Below are positions 41,949-64,000 of a stretch of 64,000 bases of DNA, one piece after another. Position numbers and translations under genes: made by a program. Under the pieces are notes generated by a model. That model ran no database searches and was not told the DNA's origin. It saw only the letters and a list, made by a program, of their open reading frames with translations. This DNA comes from Sinonovacula constricta (lineage: Eukaryota > Mollusca > Bivalvia > Cardiida > Solecurtidae), in NCBI GenBank assembly GCA_007844125.1, contig CM017572.1, positions 39,123,397-39,187,396 on the forward strand, in the 5' to 3' direction. The number at the start of each line of letters is the position of its first letter. Position 1 is the first letter of the stretch.

Positions 41949-41969
41949 CAACTTAGCATCCTTAATCTT
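41949..41969 (-). CDS. Candidate 21-nt micro-exon
   Basis: On the minus strand the last minisatellite unit gives a pyrimidine-rich acceptor (cccttctatccag), then seven codons KIKDAKL in phase 0, then the donor GTAAGA. This phase also matches the exit of the candidate exon at 48169-48319. The evidence is splice-site consensus only, so it could be chance. Confidence 0.25.
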
Positions 41970-44900
41970 CTGGATAGAAGGGCCTGGAGACCGTCTATCT
42001 CTGGATGGAAGAATTTGGTGAACATCTGTCTCTGGATAGAAGGACCTGGAGACCGTCTATCTCTGGATGGAAGAATTTGGTGAACATCTGTCTCTGGATA
42101 GAAGGACCTGGAGACCGTGTACCTCTGGATGGAAGAATTTGGTGAACATCTGTCTCTGGATAGAAGGACCTGGAGACCGTGTACCTCTGGATGGAAGAAT
42201 CTGGTGAACATCTGTCTCTGGATAGAAGGGCCTAGAGACCGTGTACCTCTGGATGGAAGAATCTGGTGAACATCAGTCTGGATAGAAGGGCCTGGAGACT
42301 GTCTACCTCTGGATGGAAGAATCGGGGGAACATCAGTCTGGATAGAAGGGCCTGGAGACTGTCTACCTCTGGATGGAAGAATCTGGTGAACATCTGTCTC
42401 TGGATAGAAGGACCTGGAGACCGTGTACCTCTGGATGGAAGAATTTGGTGAACATCTGTCTCTGGATAGAAGGACCTGGAGACCGTGTACCTCTGGATGG
42501 AAGAATCTGGTGAACATCTGTCTCTGGATAGAAGGACCTGGAGACCGTCTACCTCTGGATGGAAGAATCTGGTGAACATCTGTCTCTGGATAGAAGGACC
42601 TGGAGACCGTGTACCTCTGGATGGAAGAATCTGGTGAACATCTGTCTCTGGATAGAAGGGCCTGGAGACCGTGTACCTCTGGATGGAAGAATCTGGTGAA
42701 CATCTGTCTCTGGATAGAAGGGCCTGGAGACCGTGTACCTCTGGATGGAAGAATTTGGTGAACATCTGTCTCTGGATAGAAGGGCCTGGAGACTGTCTAC
42801 CTCTGGATGGAAGAATCTGGTGAACATCTGTCTCTGGATAGAAGGGCCTGGAGACCGTGTACCTCTGGATGGAAGAATGTGGTGAACATCTGTCTCTGGA
42901 TAGAAGGGCCTGGAGACCGTGTAACACTGGATGGAAGAATCGGGTGAACATCTGTCTCTGGATAGAAGGGCCTGGAGACTGTCTACCTCTGGATGGAAGA
43001 ATCTGGTGAACATCTGTCTCTGGATAGAAGGGCCTGGAGACTGTCTACCTCTGGATGGAAGAATCTGGTGAACATCTGTCTCTGGATAGAAGGGCCTGGA
43101 GACCGTGTACCTCTGGATGGAAGAATCTGGTGAACATCAGTCTGGATAGAAGGACCTGGAGACCGTGTACCTCTGGATGGAAGAATCTGGTGAACATCAG
43201 TCTCTGGATAGAAGGGCCTGGAGACCGTGTACCTCTGGATGGAAGAATGTGGTGAACATCTGTCTCTGGATAGAAGGGCCTGGAGACCGTGTACCTCTGG
43301 ATGGAAGAATCTGGTGAACATCTGTCTCTGGATAGAAGGGCCTGGAGACCGTGTACCTCTGGATGGAAGAATCTGGTGAACATCAGTCTGGATAGAAGGA
43401 CCTGGAGACCGTGTACCTCTGGATGGAAGAATCTGGTGAACATCTGTCTCTGGATAGAAGGGCCTGCAGACCGTGTACCTCTGGATGGAAGAATGTGGTG
43501 AACATCTGTCTCTGGATAGAAGGACCTGGAGACTGTGTACCTCTGGATGGAAGAATCTGGTGAACATCTGTCTCTGGATAGAAGGGCCTGCAGACCGTGT
43601 ACCTCTGGATGGAAGAATCTGGTGAACATCTGTCTCTGGATAGAAGGGCCTGCAGACCGTGTACCTCTGGATGGAAGAATCTGGTGAACATCTGTCTCTG
43701 GATAGAAGGACCTGGAGACTGTGTACCTCTGGATGGAAGAATCTGGTGAACATCTGTCTCTGGATAGAAGGGCCTGCAGACCGTGTACCTCTGGATGGAA
43801 GAATGTGGTGAACATCTGTCTCTGGATAGAAGGGCCTGGAGACTGTCTACCTCTGGATGGAAGAATCTGGTGAACATCTGTCTCTGGATAGAAGGACCTG
43901 GAGACCGTGTACCTCTGGATGGAAGAATCTGGTGAACATCTGTCTCTGGATAGAAGGGCCTGGAGACCATGTACCTCCAGATGGAAGAATCTGGTGAACA
44001 TCTGTCTCTGGATAGAAGGGCCTGGAGACCGTCTATCTCTGGATGGAAGAATCTGGTGAACATCAGTCTGGATAGAAGGGCCTGGAGACCGTCTACCTCT
44101 GGATGGAAGAATCTGGTGAACATCTGTCTCTGGATAGAAGGGCCTGGAGACCGTCTACCTCTGGATGGAAGAATCTGGTAAACATCTGTCTCTGGATAGA
44201 AGGGCCTGGAGACCGTCTACCTCCGGATGGAAGAATCTGGTGAACATCTGTCTCTGGATAGAAGGGCCTGGAGACCGTCTACCTCCGGATGGAAGAATCT
44301 GGTGAACATCTGTCTCTGGATAGAAGGGCCTGGAGACTGTCTACCTCTGGATGGAAGAATTGGGGGATCATCAGTCTCTGGATAGAATGGCCTGGAGACC
44401 GTCTATCTCTGGATGGAAGAATCTGGTGAACATCTGTCACTGGATAGAAGGGCCTGGAGACCGTCTACCTCCGGATGGAAGAATCTGGTGAACATCTGTC
44501 TGGATAGAAGGGCCTGGAGACTGTGTACCTCTGGATGGAAGAATCTGGTGAACATCTGTCTCTGGATAGAAGGGCCTAGAGACCGTGTACCTCTGGATGG
44601 AAGAATCGGGTGAACATCAGTCTGGATAGAAGGGCCTGGAGACTGTCTACCTCTGGATGGAAGAATCGGGTGAACATCAGTCTGGATAGAAGGGCCTGGA
44701 GACTGTCTACCTCTGGATGGAAGAATCTGGTGAACATCTGTCTCTGGATAGAAGGACCTGGAGACCGTGTACCTCTGGATGGAAGAATTTGGTGAACATC
44801 TGTCTCTGGATAGAAGGACCTGGAGACCGTCTACCTCTGGATGGAAGAATCTGGTGAACATCTGTCTCTGGATAGAAGGACCTGGAGACCGTGTACCTCT

Positions 44901-47225
44901 GGATGGAAGAATCTGGTGAACATCTGTCTCTGGATAGAAGGGCCTGGAGACCGTGTACCTCTGGATGGAAGAATCTGGTGAACATCTGTCTCTGGATAGA
45001 AGGGCCTGGAGACCGTGTACCTCTGGATGGAAGAATCTGGTGAACATCAGTCTGGATAGAAGGAGCTGGAGACCGTCTACCTCTGGATGGAAGAATCTGG
45101 TGAACATCTGTCTCTGGATAGAAGGACCTGGAGACCGTGTACCTCTGGATGGAAGAATCTGGTGAACATCAGTCTCTGGATAGAAGGGCCTGGAGACCGT
45201 GTACCTCTGGATGGAAGAATCTGGTGAACATCTGTCTCTGGATAGAAGGACCTGGAGACTGTGTACCTCTGGATGGAAGAATCTGGTGAACATCTGTCTC
45301 TGGATAGAAGGGCCTGCAGACCGTGTACCTCTGGATGGAAGAATGTGGTGAACATCTGTCTCTGGATAGAAGGGCCTGGAGACTGTCTACCTCTGGATGG
45401 AAGAATCTGGTGAACATCTGTCTCTGGATAGAAGGACCTGGAGACCGTGTACCTCTGGATGGAAGAATCTGGTGAACATCTGTCTCTGGATAGAAGGGCC
45501 TGGAGACTGTGTACCTCCGGATGGAAGAATCTGGTGAACATCTGTCTCTGAATAGAAGGGCCTGGAGACCGTCTATCTCTGGATGGAAGAATCTGGTGAA
45601 CATCAGTCTGGATAGAAGGGCCTGGAGACCGTCTACCTCTGGATGGAAGAATCTGGTGAACATCTGTCTCTGGATAGAAGGGCCTGGAGACCGTCTACCT
45701 CCGGATGGAAGAATCTGGTGAACATCTGTCTCTGGATAGAAGGGCCTGGAGACCGTCTACCTCCGGATGGAAGAATCTGGTGAACATCTGTCTCTGGATA
45801 GAAGGGCCTGGAGACCGTCTACCTCTGGATGGAAGAATTGGGGGAACATCAGTCTCTGGATAGAAGGGCCTGGAGACCGTGTACCTCTGGATGGAAGAAT
45901 CTGGTGAACATCTGTCTCTGGATAGAACAGCCTGGAGACCGTGTACCTGTGGATGGAAGAATTGGGGGAACATCAGTCTCTGGATAGAAGGGCCTGGAGA
46001 CCGTGTACCTCTGGATGGAAGAATTTGGTGAACATCAGTCTCTGGATAGAAGGGCCTGGAGACCGTCTACCTCTGGATGGAAGAATCTGGTGAACATCTG
46101 TCTCTGGATAGAAGGGCCTGGAGACCGTGTACCTCTGGATGGAAGAATTTGGTGAACATCAGTCTCTGGATAGAAGGGCCTGCAGACCGTGTACCTGTGG
46201 ATGGAAGAATTTGGTGAACATCTGTCTCTGGATAGAAGGGCCTGCAGACCGTGTACCTCTGGATGGAAGAATTTGGTGAACATCTGTCTCTGGATAGAAG
46301 GGCCTGGAGACCGTCTACCTCTGGATGGAAGAATCTGGTGAACATCTGTCTCTGGATAGAAGGGCCTGGAGACCGTCTATCTCTGGATGGAAGAATTTGG
46401 TAAACATCTGTCTCTGGATAGAAGGGCCTAGAGACCGTGTACCTCTGGATGGAAGAATTTGGTGAACATCTGTCTCTGGATAGAAGGGCCTGGAGACCGT
46501 GTACCTCTGGATGGAAGAATTTGGTGAACATCTGTCTCTGGATAGAAGGGCCTGGAGACCGTCTACCTCTGGATGGAAGAATCTGGAGAACATCTGTCTC
46601 CAGATAGAAGGGCCTGGAGACCGTCTACCTCTGGATGGAAGAATCTGGTGAATATCTGTCTCTGGATAGAAGGGCCTGGAGATTGTGTACCTCTGGATGG
46701 AAGAATGTGGTGAACATCTGTCTCTGGATAGAAGGGCCTGGAGACCGTGTACCTCTGGATGGAAGAATCTGGTGAACATCAGTCTGGATAGAAGGGCCTG
46801 GAGACCGTGTACCTCTGGATGGAAGAATCTGGTGAACATCAGTCTCTGGATAGAAGGGCCTGGAGACCGTGTACCTCTGGATGGAAGAATCTGGTGAATA
46901 TCTGTCTCTGGATAGAAGGGCCTGGAGACCGTGTACCTCTGGATGGAAGAATCTGGTGAACATCAGTCTGGATAGAAGGGCCTGGAGACTGTGTACCTCT
47001 GGATGGAAGAATCGGGTGAACATCAGTCTGGATAGAAGGGCCTGGAGACTGTGTACCTCTGGATGGAAGAATCTGGTGAACATCAGTCTGGATAGAAGGG
47101 CCTGGAGACCGTGTACCTCTGGATGGAAGAATGTGGTGAACATCTGTCTCTTGATAGAAGGGCCTGGAGACCGTGTACCTCTGGATGGAAGAATCTGGTG
47201 AACATCAGTCTGGATAGAAGGACCT
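41965..47225. repeat. 5.3-kb minisatellite, 62-bp unit, about 85 copies
   Basis: The unit contains tctggatagaagggcctgga, gaccgtgtacctctggatgg and aagaatctggtgaacatctg and is repeated head to tail with few changes. A 58-bp variant lacks four bases (catcagtctgg in place of catctgtctctgg). Position variants (ccgtg/ccgtc, ctgg/cggg/gtgg, gggcc/ggacc) recur in blocks: 42266 and 44610 (2,344 bp apart) and 43969 and 45509 (1,540 bp apart), so larger blocks were duplicated. Because 62 is not a multiple of three, all minus-strand frames are used in turn, giving open frames up to 318 codons with a 62-residue period. I regard these as by-products, not genes. Confidence 0.97.
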
Positions 47226-47390
47226 GACAAACATCTGCATCTGGATGGAAGGGCATGGTAAACATCTGCATCTGGATGGAAAAATCTGCTGAACATCTGT
47301 CGTGGGTGGAAACATCTGGTGAACATCTGTCTCTGGATGGAAACATCGGCCTTTGAAAGCATCTGATGAACATCTGCCATGGTTTATTGT
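47226..47390. repeat. Degenerate edge of the minisatellite
   Basis: Shorter, irregular units (aacatctgcatctggatgg, aacatctgtctctggatgg) mark the decayed right-hand border, where variants accumulate because correction by neighbours is weaker. Confidence 0.75.
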
Positions 47391-56960: not shown

Positions 56961-57129
56961 TTTAATGTATGGTGTATGAATTCATGGGTAATACACCACT
57001 AACAAAGGGAAATAAATATAGTACAATGTATATAAACAGAAATAATAAATACAGCAAAGACTTTCGGCAAGCTACCCTAGCCACGTAATTTTATTGCTAT
57101 CTATGCTTTCTGTGTCTTGAATATATTAA

Positions 57130-57746
57130 ACGTTCTGTTTCCGAACATCAAGGCAATTAAACCTTACGCGATGGGCTTATCAGACAGCAAGATTTAAACA
57201 TCTTGGATTACTATAATAAAGAAAATATACTCTTTAAGGGTCCGAAATATCGCCTGCCAGATGAAATAGATTTTGACCTTTGTTGCAAATAAATAGCTTA
57301 TGCAATTAATATGTTTGCTGATCGCTGGTGTAAGAGAGAAAACACGGATACAGTAGCACTCAGTACTTGGAAGAAAGCCATTTTTAAGATAATAAAAAAT
57401 CGCGTTGAATTCTACCGCTCCCATCCTTCTATTTTACCTAAGAAATATTTTTATCTCTTAAAACACCTAAAACAGTCCTTTCAGAATATTCACGAAAAAT
57501 TTGTACTTGTATCTGCAGACAAAGCTTCAAACAACATATTTTTTTGTCTGACGACTATATTACAAAAAAGTACTGAGTGCTGAGTTAATCCACCGCCAGT
57601 TTTTACACTAGCACCAACCTTGACTTTCAGACAGTCATTGACAAACATAAACAGATATTGCATAATTTCAATATAAAAATAGAATCACAGCAAGAAAAAC
57701 TTCCTTCACTATACTGGATTACTAAGCTTCACAAAACATCATACAA
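57130..57746 (+). pseudogene. Reverse transcriptase gene of a retroelement, 5' part (probably Penelope-like)
   Basis: The translation shows LFKGPKYRLPDEIDFDLCCK, a TAA at about 57291, then MFADRWCKRENTD, STWKKAIFKIIKNRV and KFVLVSADKASNN. Frame shifts follow in the T-run near 57540 and again near 57600. Then come LDFQTVIDKHKQILHNFNIK and LPSLYWITKLHKTSYK, where the TIR element interrupts it. The DKASNN and KLHK words belong to an N-terminal RT region common in mollusc retroelements; I think Penelope-like but cannot prove the class. It was already decayed or has decayed since the insertion. Confidence 0.6.
57739..57746. other. Target-site duplication, left copy (TCATACAA)
   Basis: Exact 8-bp duplication paired with 63146-63153. 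It encodes S-Y-K of the interrupted reverse transcriptase. Confidence 0.9.
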
Positions 57747-58269
57747 GTAGTAGCAAATTAGGAGGATTGACGGAGGTTCCGGAGGTTCCTGTCCCAGATC
57801 TGAGTAGGTCACCCTGTAGGTAACCCTGAACCTGAGAGGTTCCAGTCCAAAATCCAGGTGAGTAGGTTACCGCGCTCGCGTATGATTCAAGGTCGAGGTC
57901 GAATTGTGTGCAATATAGGCCAGCGAGTGCGCATGCCCATGACTGAATGTCGAGGTCGAGTTGGGGTCTCCAAAAATGTAGGTCATGTCTACACATGATC
58001 ATAGCTCAAGGTCGATATGGATCAAGTCAAGGTTAAATTCGAGGTCGAATTGAGACACCCTCTTAATCTAGAACAGTGGTGTTCACCCTTTGTCAAAGTC
58101 ACCCGCTTCGGTCGGTCTGCTTCTTTCAGTGTCTGTCAAGGTCACCGTGTAGCGATGTATGTGAACGATCAAGATTTGTAGTGACCCAATCTCGCGCACT
58201 AGCCCAACCCCACAAGGCTGGTGATAGATGGTATTTGATCTCACAGTTAAATTCAGGTTCGTGTATAAA
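57747..58269 (+). repeat. Left terminal inverted repeat, 523 bp
   Basis: Complementary to 62623-63145. It holds four or more copies of a CGAGGTCGAa/g word (near 57890, 57946, 58040) and a ggaggttcc pair near the tip, and closes with TATAAA. The outward open frame of 87 codons has repeated amino-acid words that follow from the DNA repeats; I do not call it a gene. Confidence 0.92.
58264..58269 (+). promoter_or_regulatory. TATA box at the inner edge of the left TIR
   Basis: TATAAA is the last six bases of the inverted repeat, 127 bp before the first left-side ATG (58396). The mirror copy serves the right side. Confidence 0.5.
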
Positions 58270-58395
58270 TACTGCATTTTGTCAGTTAAGTTACATTATA
58301 GCACAGGCTCAGATCAGATTAACTAGAGAGATTATTTGCCACATAACGGCTTTTAGAACGTATAGTGCTGACCTATTTGACAGCATAATCTACCG

Positions 58396-58617
58396 ATGAA
58401 AATCATTGCATTGAAGACAGAACATTCTACTGTCGACACTCTCATTTATCCCAAAGGTGCCAATCATAGCATAGTTTACCACGTGTGTGGGTTCACCAAC
58501 CCCCTACGCCAGAATTCAGTTTCCCTATCCCCAAGCATCATCCAATCACAGCCTAGGATAGAGTTGAGCGTACCAGCTTCACCCACTGGATTGTACAACT
58601 GTTTATTTAGGTCATAG
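58396..58617 (+). CDS. Left cassette ORF 1, 73 aa, unknown
   Basis: MKIIALKTEHSTVDTLIYPK and later LRQNSVSLSPSIIQSQPRIE. No known domain, no signal peptide, rich in Ser, Ile and Pro. The ATG overlaps (ATGA) the stop of a frame that enters from the inverted repeat. It is the first ATG-initiated frame after the TATA box. A chance ORF is possible, but its placement in a compact cassette supports it. Confidence 0.4.
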   Translation: MKIIALKTEHSTVDTLIYPKGANHSIVYHVCGFTNPLRQNSVSLSPSIIQSQPRIELSVPASPTGLYNCLFRS

Positions 58618-58727
58618 CTAGTTGCGCTTAATTCACAAGTTCAACTGGTTGTGTATCATCTCCTCCCTTATCCTACTAGGTCAAGAAGAAAAACGCTGAT
58701 TTTTTGCGTTATATCATATCAAGTATC

Positions 58728-59000
58728 ATGGAAGATTTTACCAACGTATCAATGATGGATTCTACCAATCAACCCACGACAGATCATGTCAGCACTTCTG
58801 AATCTAACGCGATTACAACAACTTTTTTATTTCAAATTATAGCTGTGTATTGTATCATTTTAGCCGCAATTATTAATTTGACCCTGCAACACCCTGATAA
58901 AGATTTGTGGTTAGTTTTGTTAAGTAGCTGCATAGGCTATGTATTACCAAATCCTGGTTTGAAATACAAAACACGTCCTAATGATAAACACTTGATATAA
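58728..59000 (+). CDS. Left cassette ORF 2, small two-span membrane protein, 90 aa
   Basis: The start ATG at 58728 (atcATGG, good context) is preferred over upstream non-ATG codons. Residues 1-30 are Ser/Thr/Asn/Asp-rich. The first hydrophobic span has core FQIIAVYCIILAAIINLTL and the second LWLVLLSSCIGYVLP, separated by HPDKD, and the tail is basic (NPGLKYKTRPNDKHL). It should sit in a membrane with both ends on the same side. Small membrane proteins of this kind occur in DNA viruses and virus-derived elements, but I have no specific match. AATAAA signals follow at 59063 and 59158. Confidence 0.6.
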   Translation: MEDFTNVSMMDSTNQPTTDHVSTSESNAITTTFLFQIIAVYCIILAAIINLTLQHPDKDLWLVLLSSCIGYVLPNPGLKYKTRPNDKHLI

Positions 59001-59188
59001 TGTGTACCAATTTGCATATTTATACAATCATTGTGTACTTTGTCGGAACATTGATCATTTAAAATAAAGCATACACTTAAATATTTTTGGAATAATGTAT
59101 ACCAATTTTAATATTTATGCAGTCATTATGTGCTATGTTAAATCATTTATTATTTTAAATAAAGCCTGTATTTAAATATTTGTCTTAG
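58999..59188 (+). repeat. Tandem 95-bp duplication containing the poly(A) signal
   Basis: Two diverged units share the words gtaccaattt against tataccaatttt, atatttat, aatcatt against gtcatta, and atttaaaataaagc against ttttaaataaagc. Each carries one AATAAA (59063 and 59158). Confidence 0.65.
59063..59068 (+). promoter_or_regulatory. Poly(A) signal of the left cassette
   Basis: AATAAA 62 bp after the stop of the 90-aa ORF. Confidence 0.55.
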
Positions 59189-59292
59189 TTTTTACCACAC
59201 CGTCAGATTTTGTAACCTCATGACCTAACCTCTCAAGGGTTTACCATTGTGACCTGACCTCTTTAGCCGCTGCTATCATGCTTTTTTATGTC

Positions 59293-59487
59293 ATGGATCA
59301 TTATAATTTGAGTAACAGAACTAATTTAGTCTTTGTAGAACTAATGGCGGGAAAAGTACTGGTGGGAAAAATGTGTTCGTTTAAGATAGCACAGTAGCAA
59401 GTTTTAGAGATTGTACAGCTAGGTGTTTTAGTTAATAAGAAACGCAAAAAACGGGTTGGTAAAGAAACGTCAAAATTGGCTTGGTAA
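59293..59487 (+). pseudogene. Possible small basic protein split by an in-frame TAG
   Basis: ATG at 59293 opens 34 codons (including MAGKVLVGKMCSFKIAQ), then TAG at 59395-59397, then 29 more codons in the same frame with a basic run VNKKRKKRVGKETSKLAW and TAA. The continuity of composition around the TAG suggests one inactivated frame or a read-through, but no homology supports it. Confidence 0.25.
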
Positions 59488-59567
59488 AGCAAACAAAATG
59501 GCAAAACATAGGCCATTTAATTTACAAGAGAATTAAAACAATTAGTACCGCAAATGTCACTGCCCAT

Positions 59568-59695
59568 TCCGTTGAGTTACAACGAAGCAATTACTCATTT
59601 TAATGAGTAAAAAATGAGTCACTGCTCATTTAGGTGAGTAACTACTCATTTTAGGGAGTAAAAAATGAGTAACTGCTCATTTTTATGAGCAACCA
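59568..59695. repeat. Palindromic iteron block 1 in the centre of the element
   Basis: It repeats atgagtaa and its complement ttactcat, with ctgctcattt and tttagg/tttta spacers, in the order ttactcattttaatgagtaa, aatgagtcactgctcattt, ggtgagtaactactcatttt and aatgagtaactgctcatttt. One unit is TGAGTCA, a consensus AP-1/bZIP site. Confidence 0.85.
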
Positions 59696-59989
59696 ATGGT
59701 TAATTAAAACGTTATTATTAATGAAGTGTGTTGATAGGAAAAAATGTAATAGAATGAGAAATTTGATGTCTTTTGTCTTTAAAACTTGATACAATGAAAA
59801 AAAAACACCTAAGCAAACGCTTTATATATAAAGTGAGATATGTTTATGTTCTTATGTATAACAAATAACCAAAAAATAACAAGTAAGTGGTAAAACAAAG
59901 CAAAAAGGTTAAAATAGAAAGAGACTTAATGATCAAGTTTATCAAAAAAAGCAAACGTTTACTTCTAGTGAAAAAAACAACAAATGTAA

Positions 59990-60118
59990 TTGCTCATTTC
60001 ATTGAGTTACAATAGATTGCTCATTTTAATGAGTAAAAAAATGAGTAACTGCTCATTTAGGTGAGTAACTACTCATTTTAGGGAGTAAAAAAGGAGTAAC
60101 AGCTCATTTTTATGAGTG
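59990..60118. repeat. Palindromic iteron block 2 in the centre of the element
   Basis: Same order and spacing as block 1, about 425 bp downstream. The shared lead-in gagttacaa extends the match to the left. Retention of the order in both blocks suggests function or recent copying. Confidence 0.85.
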
Positions 60119-60539
60119 GCATACATGTAAGAAAAAGTATATTTCTCATAGAAAAAAACGTAACTACTTCGTATGTTTTAGTTTAAACTTACTTGTTTGT
60201 TTTTGTTTTATTACATTAAAAGGTGTATACATGCGTTGAGAGTTAATATCTTTCAATTAGCCTTTGTACTGTAATATTCCGGATGATAAGTCTGCGATAA
60301 TTTCCCTTGTGATAAGAAAATTTGATTGTCATTTTATAATAGTACTCCTATGACTTGTCATACAGCACTATACATGTAGTTAGAAAGGACCACAATGGAA
60401 ATAAGGATATTTATATACCTTTTTTGTGTCATCCTTACTGTATAATGTTGATTGACATGGCCTAATTAGTACATACATATAATTAATTGCATGTTTTAAT
60501 GTCCATGCCATGTTTGTCAAATCATTTTATAGTGAACCA

Positions 60540-60600
60540 CGGACCTCCTGATCTAGCGTCCGGCGCTCTACCACTACACCACTTTCCTCCGCTTCGTATG
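60540..60600 (-). repeat. tRNA-like sequence inside the element
   Basis: On the minus strand, tggtgtagtggtagagcgcc is a good D-arm and A-box and an anticodon stem CCGGA/TCAGG is present, but the T-arm is broken and there is no acceptor stem. It is a SINE head or tRNA remnant, not a working tRNA. Confidence 0.45.
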
Positions 60601-60736
60601 ATTTTGCAGTTAGGTTGTGTTTGCGTCTTAGTTACCAAGGTGTGTCATCTGTTTTGATAGAATGGCAACATTTCTGTGTACCTGTTGTATAGTTTTACAT
60701 TACAAATATAAAGGAAGACTGTTTTCAATTTTTCAA

Positions 60737-60742
60737 TTTATT
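60737..60742 (-). promoter_or_regulatory. Poly(A) signal of the right cassette
   Basis: AATAAA on the minus strand, about 85 bp after the stop of the zinc-finger ORF. Confidence 0.5.
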
Positions 60743-60825
60743 GGTACAATATACAAAATATATTATTTTAACAAATGCTTTTATATAATACTTCACATGT
60801 CAAAAAAATACCGACATAGTAAACT

Positions 60826-61323
60826 TTACTCTTGCGTTAAGTCTGGTGGGTTATAACCCTCAATAACAGCTTCAAAAAGAAATTTTCTTTTATTAACGGC
60901 ATATTTCCAGGCTTCTTCTGTGTCAAAGTCCTCAGTTTGTATAACACTATCAGCCGTCTTTTTGATCGACTGAAAAACTGGAGAATCTTTGAGAGCGTTG
61001 ATCCAAATCACATTTTCCGTGAATATATTAGTTAGCGCTTTACGATAAGTATTCTTCATGAGGTTAAATGTCCGATCACGCGCCTCTTCTTCTGTAATAT
61101 TTTGTTGATCCATCAAACCTTTGACTTCTTCTTCGTATCTGTCTTGATACTGTTCAAATACTTCTTCCACAAGACGGTCCATTGGATCGCTTTCTTCCTC
61201 TCCATTAAACGTGTCAGACTCAAAATCCACATCGTCTGTTTCCTGCTGATGCTTCCTCTGTTTATGCCTTATCAGGTTATACTTTCTAGCAAATGTTTTG
61301 TTGCACATATTACAGGAAAACAT
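60826..61323 (-). CDS. C2H2 zinc-finger protein with acidic helical domain, 165 aa
   Basis: A single classical finger is at the very N-terminus: Cys4, Cys7, His20, His25 (MFSCNMCNKTFARKYNLIRH). An acidic linker follows (DDVDFESDTFNGEEESDPMD), then a long helical region rich in Glu, Arg and Lys (EEVFEQYQDRYEEEVKGLMD, RKALTNIFTENVIWINAL), ending GYNPPDLTQE. A lone finger plus helical tail suggests nucleic-acid binding and oligomerisation. It is the last ORF of the minus-strand cassette, 15 bp after its neighbour. A link to zinc-finger genes of virus-derived elements is inference. Confidence 0.75.
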   Translation of the reverse strand: MFSCNMCNKTFARKYNLIRHKQRKHQQETDDVDFESDTFNGEEESDPMDRLVEEVFEQYQDRYEEEVKGLMDQQNITEEEARDRTFNLMKNTYRKALTNIFTENVIWINALKDSPVFQSIKKTADSVIQTEDFDTEEAWKYAVNKRKFLFEAVIEGYNPPDLTQE

Positions 61324-61338
61324 GACTAAAACTCTAAA

Positions 61339-61725
61339 TTATCCAAAAACGTCGTCAATTTCTTTAAATTTCTCTGTTTTTCTTGGTGTATTTCTTGATG
61401 AGGTAATAGTTTTCTTTGCCGGTACAGTGTTCTCCTTTTCAACCGAAAGTCTCGGTGTAATTTTTATCTTTTTGCTTGCTTTTTTCGTGTAGAGACGTTT
61501 CAATTTTATCTTCCTCTCACCAGCGCTGCGGTCAGTTATGACAGGTTTTGCAGTACCTCGTTTATTTATGCGCTCTAACTCAGATTTAGCTCTGTCCACC
61601 ACACTTTGAACTGGAGATGTTAATTCCATGCACGTCTGTTTTTGAATTTCGGAAAACGATGATTTTTTTGGTCGAAAAAAATCAGCCCACTTTTTGGGAT
61701 CAGGCATATACGTTGAATAATTCAT
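61339..61725 (-). CDS. Basic Lys/Ser/Thr-rich protein, 128 aa
   Basis: It begins MNYSTYMPDPKKWADFFRPK. After residue 55 it is very basic (KIKLKRLYTKKASKKIKITP, SRNTPRKTEKFK) and ends EIDDVFG. There is no known fold. The charge suggests DNA binding or packaging, or a nuclear protein. It is spaced 22 bp from the ORF upstream and 15 bp from the one downstream, a density not seen in the host genes of this window. Confidence 0.65.
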   Translation of the reverse strand: MNYSTYMPDPKKWADFFRPKKSSFSEIQKQTCMELTSPVQSVVDRAKSELERINKRGTAKPVITDRSAGERKIKLKRLYTKKASKKIKITPRLSVEKENTVPAKKTITSSRNTPRKTEKFKEIDDVFG

Positions 61726-61747
61726 GTTTCTTTAGCAAACAGTAATG

Positions 61748-62038
61748 TCAGCAATACAGGTAGTTGTAAGAATGAAGCTTGCAATCGTTTAAACCCTTTA
61801 TATAATATATTTCAAATTCAAACAGTTTTGTGTGATTTAACGGTAGAAAAATTGATGCTGATGAAAGCACATTGGAATTGATTTTCTGTTCCAAAATATA
61901 ACAGTAAAAGTCGTCCACTTGTTGATGTATAAGGTCAATGCTCTGAAGAAAAAGACCGCGGACATTAAAAGGAGAAATATTTGCACTGGAGCGTTGTGCC
62001 CTTCTATGTAACAGATACCAGCGAAGGAAGAAATCCAT
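61748..62038 (-). CDS. Small ORF, 96 aa, unknown
   Basis: MDFFLRWYLLHRRAQRSSAN is followed by VRGLFLQSIDLIHQQVDDFY and a Leu/Asn-rich tail. No domain is recognised. A decayed second copy of its first 15-20 codons lies at about 62480-62578, which suggests the ORF was once kept or duplicated as a coding unit. First ORF of the minus cassette after the decayed copy. Confidence 0.5.
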   Translation of the reverse strand: MDFFLRWYLLHRRAQRSSANISPFNVRGLFLQSIDLIHQQVDDFYCYILEQKINSNVLSSASIFLPLNHTKLFEFEIYYIKGLNDCKLHSYNYLYC

Positions 62039-62479
62039 AGGTCAATGACCTATTGATAGCGCGCTCATTTATCAAGGTTGTATTGAAATTTTTGTGAGAG
62101 GGGCCCCGCTTAAAAAATCCTAACATGACCTCGAATCATACGCATGACTAATCGATGTCCCTCAAACATAGAATGAAAACAGGAATGGTTCAATATACCT
62201 AGCGCATCAACTGAGAGTTTTCTGTTTTAAAAAGAACAATCTGGTCAATCTATTTTTCTGCTGCACAATTCCCGCTTACCTCACCTAGCTAGCGTCGTAG
62301 TTAACAAGTTACAATAATGGTTCAACGGTACCAACTTCATAAAAAATATCTGTGTTAATGCGGTCACTGTCGTAGAATATATGGAAACTCCTAGGTAAAC
62401 GATTTGATGGTCAATGCATAGATAGTTCACCTCCCGCCATGTGCGACCTCAGAAAAGTGTTAAAGTTCGGCGCTCATCG

Positions 62480-62578
62480 AGTCATGCATTTATCCCATTG
62501 AACATCTGAGGTCAATGCTCTACAGAAGAATTTTGCATTGGAGCGTTGTAACATATATCAGCGAAGGAAGAAATTCAT
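62480..62578 (-). pseudogene. Decayed copy of the start of the 96-aa ORF
   Basis: Reading from ATG at 62578 on the minus strand gives M-N-F-F-L-R, then TGA where the intact copy has Trp (TGG), then Y-M-L-Q-R. The DNA match (gcgaaggaagaaat, ggagcgttgt, aggtcaatgctct) extends about 100 bp. It lies between the right-hand TATA box and the intact ORF. Confidence 0.5.
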
Positions 62579-62622
62579 AAGTTTATGATCCATTGATAAC
62601 TGAATTTAACAAAGCGCACTCT

Positions 62623-62628
62623 TTTATA
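62623..62628 (-). promoter_or_regulatory. TATA box at the inner edge of the right TIR
   Basis: TATAAA on the minus strand, identical in position to the left one, reading into the minus-strand ORF cluster. Confidence 0.5.
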
Positions 62629-63145
62629 CACGAACCTGAATTTAACTGTGAGATCAAATACCATCTATCACCAGCCTTGCGGGGTTGGGCTAGTGCGCGA
62701 GATTGGGTCACTACAAACCTTGATCGTTCACATACATCGCTACACGGTGACCTTGACAGACACTGAAAGAAGCAGACCGACCGAAGCGGGTGACTTTGAC
62801 AAAGGGTGAACACCACTGTTCTAGATTAAGAGGGTGTCTCAATTCGACCTCGAATTTAACCTTGACTTGATCCATATCGACCTTGAGCTATGATCATGTG
62901 TAGACATGACCTACATTTTTGGAGACCCCAACTCGACCTCGACATTCAGTCATGGGCATGCGCACTCGCTGGCCTATATTGCACACAATTCGACCTCGAC
63001 CTTGAATCATACGCGAGCGCGGTAACCTACTCACCTGGATTTTGGACTGGAACCTCTCAGGTTCAGGGTTACCTACAGGGTGACCTACTCAGATCTGGGA
63101 CAGGAACCTCCGGAACCTCCGTCAATCCTCCTAATTTGCTACTAC
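62623..63145 (-). repeat. Right terminal inverted repeat, 523 bp
   Basis: Mirror of 57747-58269. The two visible differences lie in the inner 110 bp (cacaaggc against cgcaaggc, aagatttg against aaggtttg). Confidence 0.92.
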
Positions 63146-63153
63146 TCATACAA
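63146..63153. other. Target-site duplication, right copy (TCATACAA)
   Basis: Exact partner of 57739-57746. Confidence 0.9.
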
Positions 63154-64000
63154 GTCACGATTCATAGCTAATGCCAGCTCTAGCACCACCACTCACATAT
63201 CTAAATTACTTACGTCTTGCCTTACAGACGTTCGTATTTCACGTTTTTAAATGTTGTAAAAAAGGTGTATGAAAATTCAGGAATTAACGTTTGTTGGTCT
63301 ATTACAAATTCTTCAGAAGTCTTAGACAAGTTTCGTACTTTAAACTTTCATTGCTCTGCAGTTAATACTTACGATTTCTCAACGCTGTACACTTCTTTAC
63401 CTCATGATTTAATTAAGACCAAATTGATTGTTCTTATTGAGAAAACATTTGCTCGAGAATATCGTCTTTATATTGCATGTCATGAAAGTAATGCATTTTT
63501 ATCAACACTTAGAAAAGTTTACTACGTAGACTTGCACGGATGTGTGTGAAGCTCTATGTTTCCTATTAGACACTTAATTTAGACAATTAATTGGTATTCC
63601 TATGGGAACCAACTGTGCACCATTAATTGCAGATTTGTTTTTATACTGCTTTCAACGTGATTTCATGTTAACCTTGTCCCCTTCTCTAACAAAGCCACAT
63701 TATAGAGGTTTTCAATATAACGTCACGCTATCTTGGTGATGTTCTAACTATAGATAATCCTTTCTGTTCTTAAATGAACCATCTGATTTACCCTCCAGAA
63801 CTTACCCGTAATAAAGCAAATAACTGCCATTTAAATGCAGCATTTCTAGACATTGAAATCGCTTTTTTCCAATGACAACGTCTCTACTAAAATCTATGAC
63901 AAGAGAGATGATTTCAACGTTAGTATTGTGAATTATCCATACCTTGAATGTGATTCACCTCGTGCTACCTCCTATGGTATTTACATATCGCAACTTACAA
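63146..64000 (+). pseudogene. Reverse transcriptase gene, 3' part (continues past the window)
   Basis: It resumes with KSRFIANASSSTTTHISKLL directly after the insertion, then YDFSTLYTSLPHDLIK (RT motif A region), a frameshift near 63545, and IGIPMGTNCAPLIADLFLYC (motif B). The catalytic box reads YLGD instead of YxDD. Further shifts occur before YDKRDDFNVSIVNYPYL and TSYGIYISQL at the window edge. With frameshifts and a lost catalytic Asp it cannot encode active enzyme. Confidence 0.65.

Follow-up and report, generated by a model that had tools for sequence, protein, structure and literature searches.

A 5.4-kb element with Polinton-type ends in Sinonovacula constricta, probably a non-autonomous and satellite-like insertion

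Introduction

Contig C18 of the bivalve Sinonovacula constricta carries, within a stretch of 64,000 nt that was analysed as a whole (hereafter, the window), a 5.4-kb element bounded by long inverted repeats and encoding a few small proteins. The locus raises the question of which class of mobile DNA it belongs to and how an element with so few genes came to be inserted. The first-pass annotation suggested that it could be a new family or else the reduced satellite of a family, and set Polintons (Mavericks) aside on account of an 8-bp target duplication and the lack of any hallmark protein. Polintons count among the possible ancestors of many DNA viruses of eukaryotes, and their viral movement in animals is debated. 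We conclude, with a probability of about 0.9, that the window element is a non-autonomous, satellite-like Polinton that inserted recently. Judged by its ends, its target-site duplication and its relatives, it belongs to this known superfamily, and judged by its gene content it is non-autonomous. A new superfamily is thereby out, as the terminal inverted repeat (TIR) is of Polinton lineage, while the reduced satellite stands.

Results and Discussion

Ends and target-site duplication

The element occupies positions 57746-63146 of the window, each limit lying one base outside the one given earlier (57747..63145). The left TIR (57746..58269, plus strand) begins with AGTAGTAGC, its outer sequence being common to other copies in the same genome, and the right TIR (62623..63146, minus strand) ends with GCTACTACT. 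Each is 524 nt long, and the near-identity noted earlier for repeats of 523 nt was borne out, with two mismatches in 523 compared positions (TIR positions 428 and 466, counting from 57747). Because the arms differ at so few positions, the insertion is probably young. The terminal motif is AGTAGT at 57746 and ACTACT ending at 63146. A 6-bp duplication, CATACA, adjoins the AGTAGT end at 57740..57745 and the ACTACT end at 63147..63152.

The 8-bp duplication, which had been called unambiguous, required correction. The 8-bp match TCATACAA is literally present on both sides of the element, but the inverted repeat reaches one base beyond the earlier limits on each side, and the choice between the two readings is decided by other copies in the genome: the 8-bp reading fails in all six other insertions with a 6-bp duplication and holds in the window alone. 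It is a chance extension of the 6-bp CATACA. Transposons of the hAT, P or MULE type, which make 8- to 9-bp duplications, were rejected on the same count. Vertebrate Mavericks have (AGT)2//(ACT)2 ends, TIRs of 46-1,447 bp and 6-bp duplications (PMC8097293), and the 524-bp TIR of the window falls within this range. Rfam yielded no match over 57500-63400, and phage records queried with the TIR and with the C2H2 protein described below yielded none either.

Copies in the genome and full-size relatives

A search of the 1.22-Gb genome with the TIR gave at least 40 matches, several of them paired, and 20 stretches covering the main TIR pairs were retrieved. Both ends were read for eight insertions of this TIR group, and in seven of them the AGTAGT...ACTACT ends are flanked by a 6-bp duplication without mismatch. 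Besides the window, these are a copy on C16 (CACACA), a sister of the window element on C10 (ATCATC), a full-size copy on C9 (CGCGTG) and three palindromic copies, on C9 (AATAGA), C7 (CTCAGT) and C5 (CATAAA). The eighth is represented by five loci on C16 and C17 (L015, L016, L022, L023 and L024) in which the Polinton ends are present and the duplication is absent; these loci share one flank pair and are therefore one insertion copied with its surroundings. One end only was read in L019, L020, L021 and L026, of which L019 and L020 have a common left flank. Many TIR copies cluster on C17 at about 47.99-50.22 Mb.

The C16 copy measures 21.2 kb between TIRs, and its left end is the left end of the window element. 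Leaving aside a 47-bp insertion, the TIRs are 99% identical; the left module of the window element as a whole (57746..59418, plus strand), which comprises the TIR, a 73-aa frame, a membrane protein open reading frame (ORF) and flanking DNA, differs from that of the C16 copy at 19 of 1,673 compared positions (1.1%) and by two indels. The integrase of this copy matches rve and a chromodomain above the Pfam cut-offs, an ATPase-like frame shows weak AAA_16 and Pox_A32 matches, and three frames of 138, 137 and 433 aa stand between them. The second gene module of vertebrate Mavericks consists of integrase, minor capsid, PW, major capsid and protease genes (PMC8097293), and the three frames follow the order of minor capsid, PW and major capsid in that paper. 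The C16 copy is a longer relative with the same TIR, of the kind that the first-pass annotation proposed to seek, and it carries Polinton genes. The full-size copy on C9 (L027/L028) is 18.4 kb long, with a DNA_pol_B_2 match of 23.7 bits that lies under the cut-off of 25.8, and its integrase matches IS481 at 56.7 bits, again under the cut-off of that family. The capsid-like and penton-like frames had no sequence match in Pfam or the Protein Data Bank (PDB), and a fold model of the capsid-like frame was unusable at a pLDDT of 35; the polymerase-like, capsid-like and window-flank frames had none in the PDB by sequence, and no IMG/VR relative of the capsid-like frame of L027 was confirmed.

At the right end, the C16 copy encodes a BIR (inhibitor-of-apoptosis) protein. 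A BIR gene lies near the right end in L011 (628-996, minus strand), with relatives in L014, L015, L016, L021, L023, L024 and L027, and in these Polinton-type elements it is neighboured by two small genes.

The C10 sister is 5.0 kb long with 201-bp TIRs and keeps open PW, C2H2-helical and membrane protein frames. Its C2H2 and PW proteins are 99.4% and 96.9% identical to those of the window. Among related copies the TIR measures 135, 201, 289, 524 or about 760 bp; 235 bp are repeated in the right arm of the window element that occur in the 21-kb copy at the left end only, and one end of the C5 copy is longer by two AGT units.

Gene content of the element

The convergent arrangement of three ORFs described earlier, for a membrane protein of 90 aa (plus strand), a C2H2 protein of 165 aa and a basic protein of 128 aa (both minus strand), was confirmed. 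The claim that no hallmark protein is present fared less well. The basic protein (61339..61725, minus strand; pI 10.2) is homologous to the PW frame of Polintons, a name that itself derives from the gene order given in PMC8097293. It scored 71.6 bits against the PW frame of L027, the best of 100 shuffles reaching 28.1. A MAFFT alignment runs from end to end, with MNYSTYMPDPKKW against MNSALYVPDPKKW at the start, a common SPVQSVVDRAKSEL block and a VFG/IFG end, and the conserved part comprises the first 54 residues (59% identical), the remainder being lysine-rich. In the slot before PW, positions 61784..61882 (minus strand) are probably what remains of the C-terminal portion of a penton-like gene (44% identity over 36 aa, E 0.002 by tblastn). 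The C10 sister matches the same frame with 26% identity over 84 aa (E 0.001); the two matches are copies by descent and count as one weak match. A penton-like gene followed by PW is the order of the large copies. What held of the earlier claim is the absence of the core enzymes and capsid: none of the integrase, capsid-like, ATPase-like and polymerase-like frames of L027/L028 had a tblastn match at E 0.01 in 57000-64000. The 6-bp duplication, the PW homolog and the penton remnant remove both grounds on which Polintons had been set aside, and the 21-kb relative, which has the TIR of the window element, carries Polinton genes.

The C2H2 gene (60826..61323, minus strand) starts 15 nt behind the PW gene, whereas the larger copies have a capsid-like frame there, 2 nt behind PW. 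Its product combines one C2H2 finger, matched in Pfam above the cut-off, with an all-helical domain (mean pLDDT 82, pTM 0.54). Compared with PDB and viral structures, the fold gave no match at E 0.001 or better. A profile search of PDB sequences returned 141 chains at E <=1, and the 60 listed were zinc-finger entries matched mainly over the finger. Four relatives were found by single-sequence search and 50 by profile. One of them (P0001) is 98% identical and comes from a 1,544-bp metagenome contig, and another, from Mactra antiquata (P0002), is 88% identical over 72% of the query. Some of the relatives (P0040, P0026, P0022 and others) have a PW-like motif at the C-terminal end, which at 7.4 bits at best is below significance and serves as a lead only. 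Scans of IMG/VR with the C2H2, membrane and PW proteins or their alignments confirmed no relative, and PHROGs and NCBIfam gave weak matches only to the window proteins (best E 0.017 in each).

The membrane protein (58728..59000, plus strand) has two spans as judged by eye. Its ORF encodes 90 aa in the window, 95 aa in L013 and 103 aa in L009, L012, L019 and L020. Six relatives were found at E <=0.001, besides 44 matches in the own genome including itself. The membrane gene is probably a Polinton accessory gene because one distant relative, the sole one examined further, adjoins integrase-like and capsid-like fragments within about 2 kb.

Several smaller features complete the element. The 73-aa ORF (58396-58617) is kept in L009, L012, L019 and L020 within a near-identical left module, and is unlisted in L013. 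Behind the membrane gene lie two copies of a 95-nt tandem repeat (58997..59181), followed by two blocks of short self-complementary or palindromic repeats of the ACTCATTTTAATGAGTAA / TACTCATTTTAATGAGTA type (59551..60117), also present in L012 and L013, which are possible binding sites. A 96-aa ORF (61748-62038) overlaps the penton remnant and has a 72-aa counterpart of 79% identity in the C10 sister. The right-hand region of the element (61761..62622) shares its first 330 nt with that sister and contains an internal duplication (62007-62058 and 62547-62598).

The element sits in an apparent decayed reverse-transcriptase gene (57311-57745 and 63290-64000) with a IPMGTNCAPLIADLFLY motif. The motif suggests a Penelope-like gene, which Pfam did not confirm. 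Elsewhere in the window, a 62-bp unit is repeated in tandem over 5.4 kb (41969-47342), in 87 copies that give 94% matches.

Palindromic copies

Three copies of the TIR group are palindromes of the whole element. The arms measure 3.6 kb in the C9 palindrome (0.33% diverged) and 3.1 kb in the C7 palindrome (0.74% diverged), while those of the C5 palindrome are about 5.2 kb long, are separated by about 250 bp and, compared piecewise, are 99.4-99.5% identical. The whole palindromes extend over L013 531-7807, L014 424-6596, and from L017 443 to L018 1251. Each has its own 6-bp duplication, and therefore each palindrome was inserted as a unit. The C9 palindrome is built from a left half with some sequence that, among the loci compared, is otherwise confined to the window element and the C10 sister, so that a molecule of the satellite type is the likely source of that part. 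Since a further part matches the C5 palindrome, the C9 palindrome is a mosaic.

Protein-primed linear genomes such as those of adenovirus and phi29 are known for snap-back templates, for terminal duplication and for slippage at their terminal repeats. By analogy, the explanation we prefer for the palindromes, the variation in TIR length and the extra AGT units is protein-primed replication that would leave these scars through such templates, duplication and slippage. The three palindromes are likely inserted snap-back genomes.

A second small family

The search of the own genome with the C2H2 protein gave ten matches. Two are the window gene itself and that of the C10 sister (99%), four have 40% identity and no stops, one has five stops and three are weak. 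Those read were the window, the C10 sister and L031 to L034, the others being C11:6259728, C1:981360, C14:34531131 and C7:15749422. Two of the four 40% matches belong to a second family of small elements, L031 940-7553 on C1 and L032 463-7058 on C7, which are 6.6 kb long with arms of about 2 kb, AGTAGT...ACTACT ends and 6-bp duplications (GATGTA and TTGACC, respectively). In each of them, open frames encode a 252-aa protein with a MYND match below threshold, a basic protein of 131 aa and a C2H2 protein of 203 aa. Between the two copies the basic and C2H2 proteins are identical, the MYND-like protein is 99.6% identical and the element DNA 98.9%. As in the window, the C2H2 gene follows the basic gene, and its product is 37% identical to the C2H2 protein of the window. 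The basic protein of L031 scored 23.9 bits against PW by BLASTP with composition correction off and 3.3 bits by profile, at which values homology is not established. This family thus shares with the window element the Polinton ends, the 6-bp duplications and the basic gene followed by a C2H2 gene, and differs in its long arms, its MYND-like gene, the lack of a membrane-protein match and a basic protein that is only weakly PW-like.

No helper for this family was identified; among the pairs at Polinton-like spacing, the one at C4:54218154 alone was read. That pair had no match to a core query and a single ORF of at least 130 aa, lying over the left end, and because its flanks are mutually inverted complements it was left out of the element count. 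In L037 (C17) the right end was located and the left-end motif was not found. L033 and L034, two further C2H2 matches read 5 kb to each side, had no match to any Polinton core query.

Alternative explanations

Two rival accounts concern how the element arose and are sub-readings of the conclusion above, so that their odds need not add up to one. The stronger, to which we give somewhat less than even odds, is that a large Polinton with C2H2 and PW genes lost its core by plain deletion and that the remaining genes are relics. The near-identity of the left module to that of the 21-kb copy agrees with this, as does the membrane ORF, longer in four other copies than in the window, and the penton remnant, which indicates core-gene loss, raised its odds. 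The changes between copies prove no selection: the C2H2 gene shows one synonymous and one nonsynonymous change (pN/pS 0.23), PW one and four (1.09), the membrane gene 0-1 and 0-5 per pair (0.81-1.37 where defined), and, between the two large copies, the capsid-like frame six and three and the integrase one and three, and such counts, from 0 to 6 changes per pair, are too few to argue for selection either way, which also weighs on our own conclusion. On the other hand, no full-size Polinton with this C2H2 gene was found among the six of ten own-genome matches that were read, relatives of the C2H2 protein exist elsewhere (98% for P0001; 88% over 72% for P0002), and the second family has the basic and C2H2 pair, none of its three frames being interrupted in either of the two copies read. 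It is mainly because this pairing recurs in small Polinton-ended elements, in two families of one genome, that a satellite is favoured over an accidental deletion. Rather unlikely in our view is the further step to an endogenous satellite virus, packaged in the capsids of a helper polintovirus and spreading from animal to animal, in which C2H2 and PW would serve as early and core proteins of its own. The element does have its own PW homolog, and zinc-finger 'Ziftr' genes are reported for some adintoviruses and a clam adomavirus (PMC11071296), a likeness in description. The 98% identical C2H2 protein on the metagenome contig would fit as well, but that contig may be host DNA, there is no evidence of virions, packaging or transmission, and IMG/VR, as noted above, confirmed no relative of the three proteins.

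The other rivals deny a Polinton origin or the reality of the structures. An assembly artefact, in which a false inverted join produced TIRs or palindromes, is very improbable: chimeric reads can produce palindromes, and the C4 pair with mutually inverted-complement flanks was excluded from the element count, but the arms have diverged (2/523 in the window, 0.33% and 0.74% in the C9 and C7 palindromes), and the two flanks are unlike each other and bear the 6-bp duplication. Least probable of all is a genome segment like those of bidnaviruses or densoviruses, with terminal repeats of about 0.5 kb, which would resemble the element in size, long TIRs and convergent genes. The ends and the duplication are of Polinton type, and we rejected this reading since neither an NS1 helicase nor a VP family, nor any other parvovirus family, is among the Pfam matches of the five window ORFs; the likeness to parvoviruses drawn earlier thus found no support. 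Some observations do weigh against our own conclusion. The polymerase-like frames of the C16 copy are interrupted, and no copy has been shown to be active. The names capsid-like and penton-like follow from the gene order in PMC8097293 and PMC4028283. Mobilisation in trans, lastly, we infer from the shared ends.

Relation to known elements and significance

The window element agrees with vertebrate Polintons in its terminal motif, 6-bp duplication, TIR length range and PW gene, and differs in its size (5.4 kb against 12.7-24.6 kb) and in having no match to an integrase, polymerase, ATPase or capsid-like gene (PMC8097293). With the C16 (21-kb) and C9 (18.4-kb) copies it shares the terminal motif, the 6-bp duplication and the penton-PW order, and with the former also the left 1.7 kb; unlike it, these copies carry core genes, and their stretches that were read yielded no such C2H2 relative. 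Adintoviruses resemble the proposed helper in an integrase with a C-terminal chromodomain, and some are reported to have 'Ziftr' genes (PMC11071296), whereas the window element has no PolB or hexon match. Non-autonomous derivation is already known as an idea: Tlr elements were once proposed to be non-autonomous derivatives (PMC4028283). Titles and abstract openings of the literature searched, as partly listed, contained no description of gene-bearing non-autonomous or palindromic Polintons of animals. Polinton particles had not been observed so far, according to the abstract of PMC8097293.

In the mechanism that we propose, the integrase of a full Polinton would insert the element with a 6-bp stagger, and its polymerase would copy the linear DNA from the AGT-repeat ends by protein priming. 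The C2H2 and PW proteins may bind or condense the DNA of the element or to steer helper expression, and the element may be packaged in helper capsids. More broadly, by analogy with virophages and phage satellites, we tentatively suggest, as a possible but doubtful generalisation, that animal genomes harbour satellite polintoviruses. These would be small, recurrently evolved, gene-bearing parasites of Polintons with Polinton ends and a basic and C2H2 gene pair, without replication or capsid genes, replicating as linear protein-primed molecules (with palindromes and AGT slippage as scars) and spreading in helper particles.

The interest of the element lies in its gene-bearing satellite form, the recurrence of this form and the palindromic copies. 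Small gene-bearing relatives and palindromes with proper 6-bp duplications would record linear replication and integration in trans of Polintons, and the palindromes, with arms diverged by 0.3-0.7%, are young markers by which this activity may be probed.

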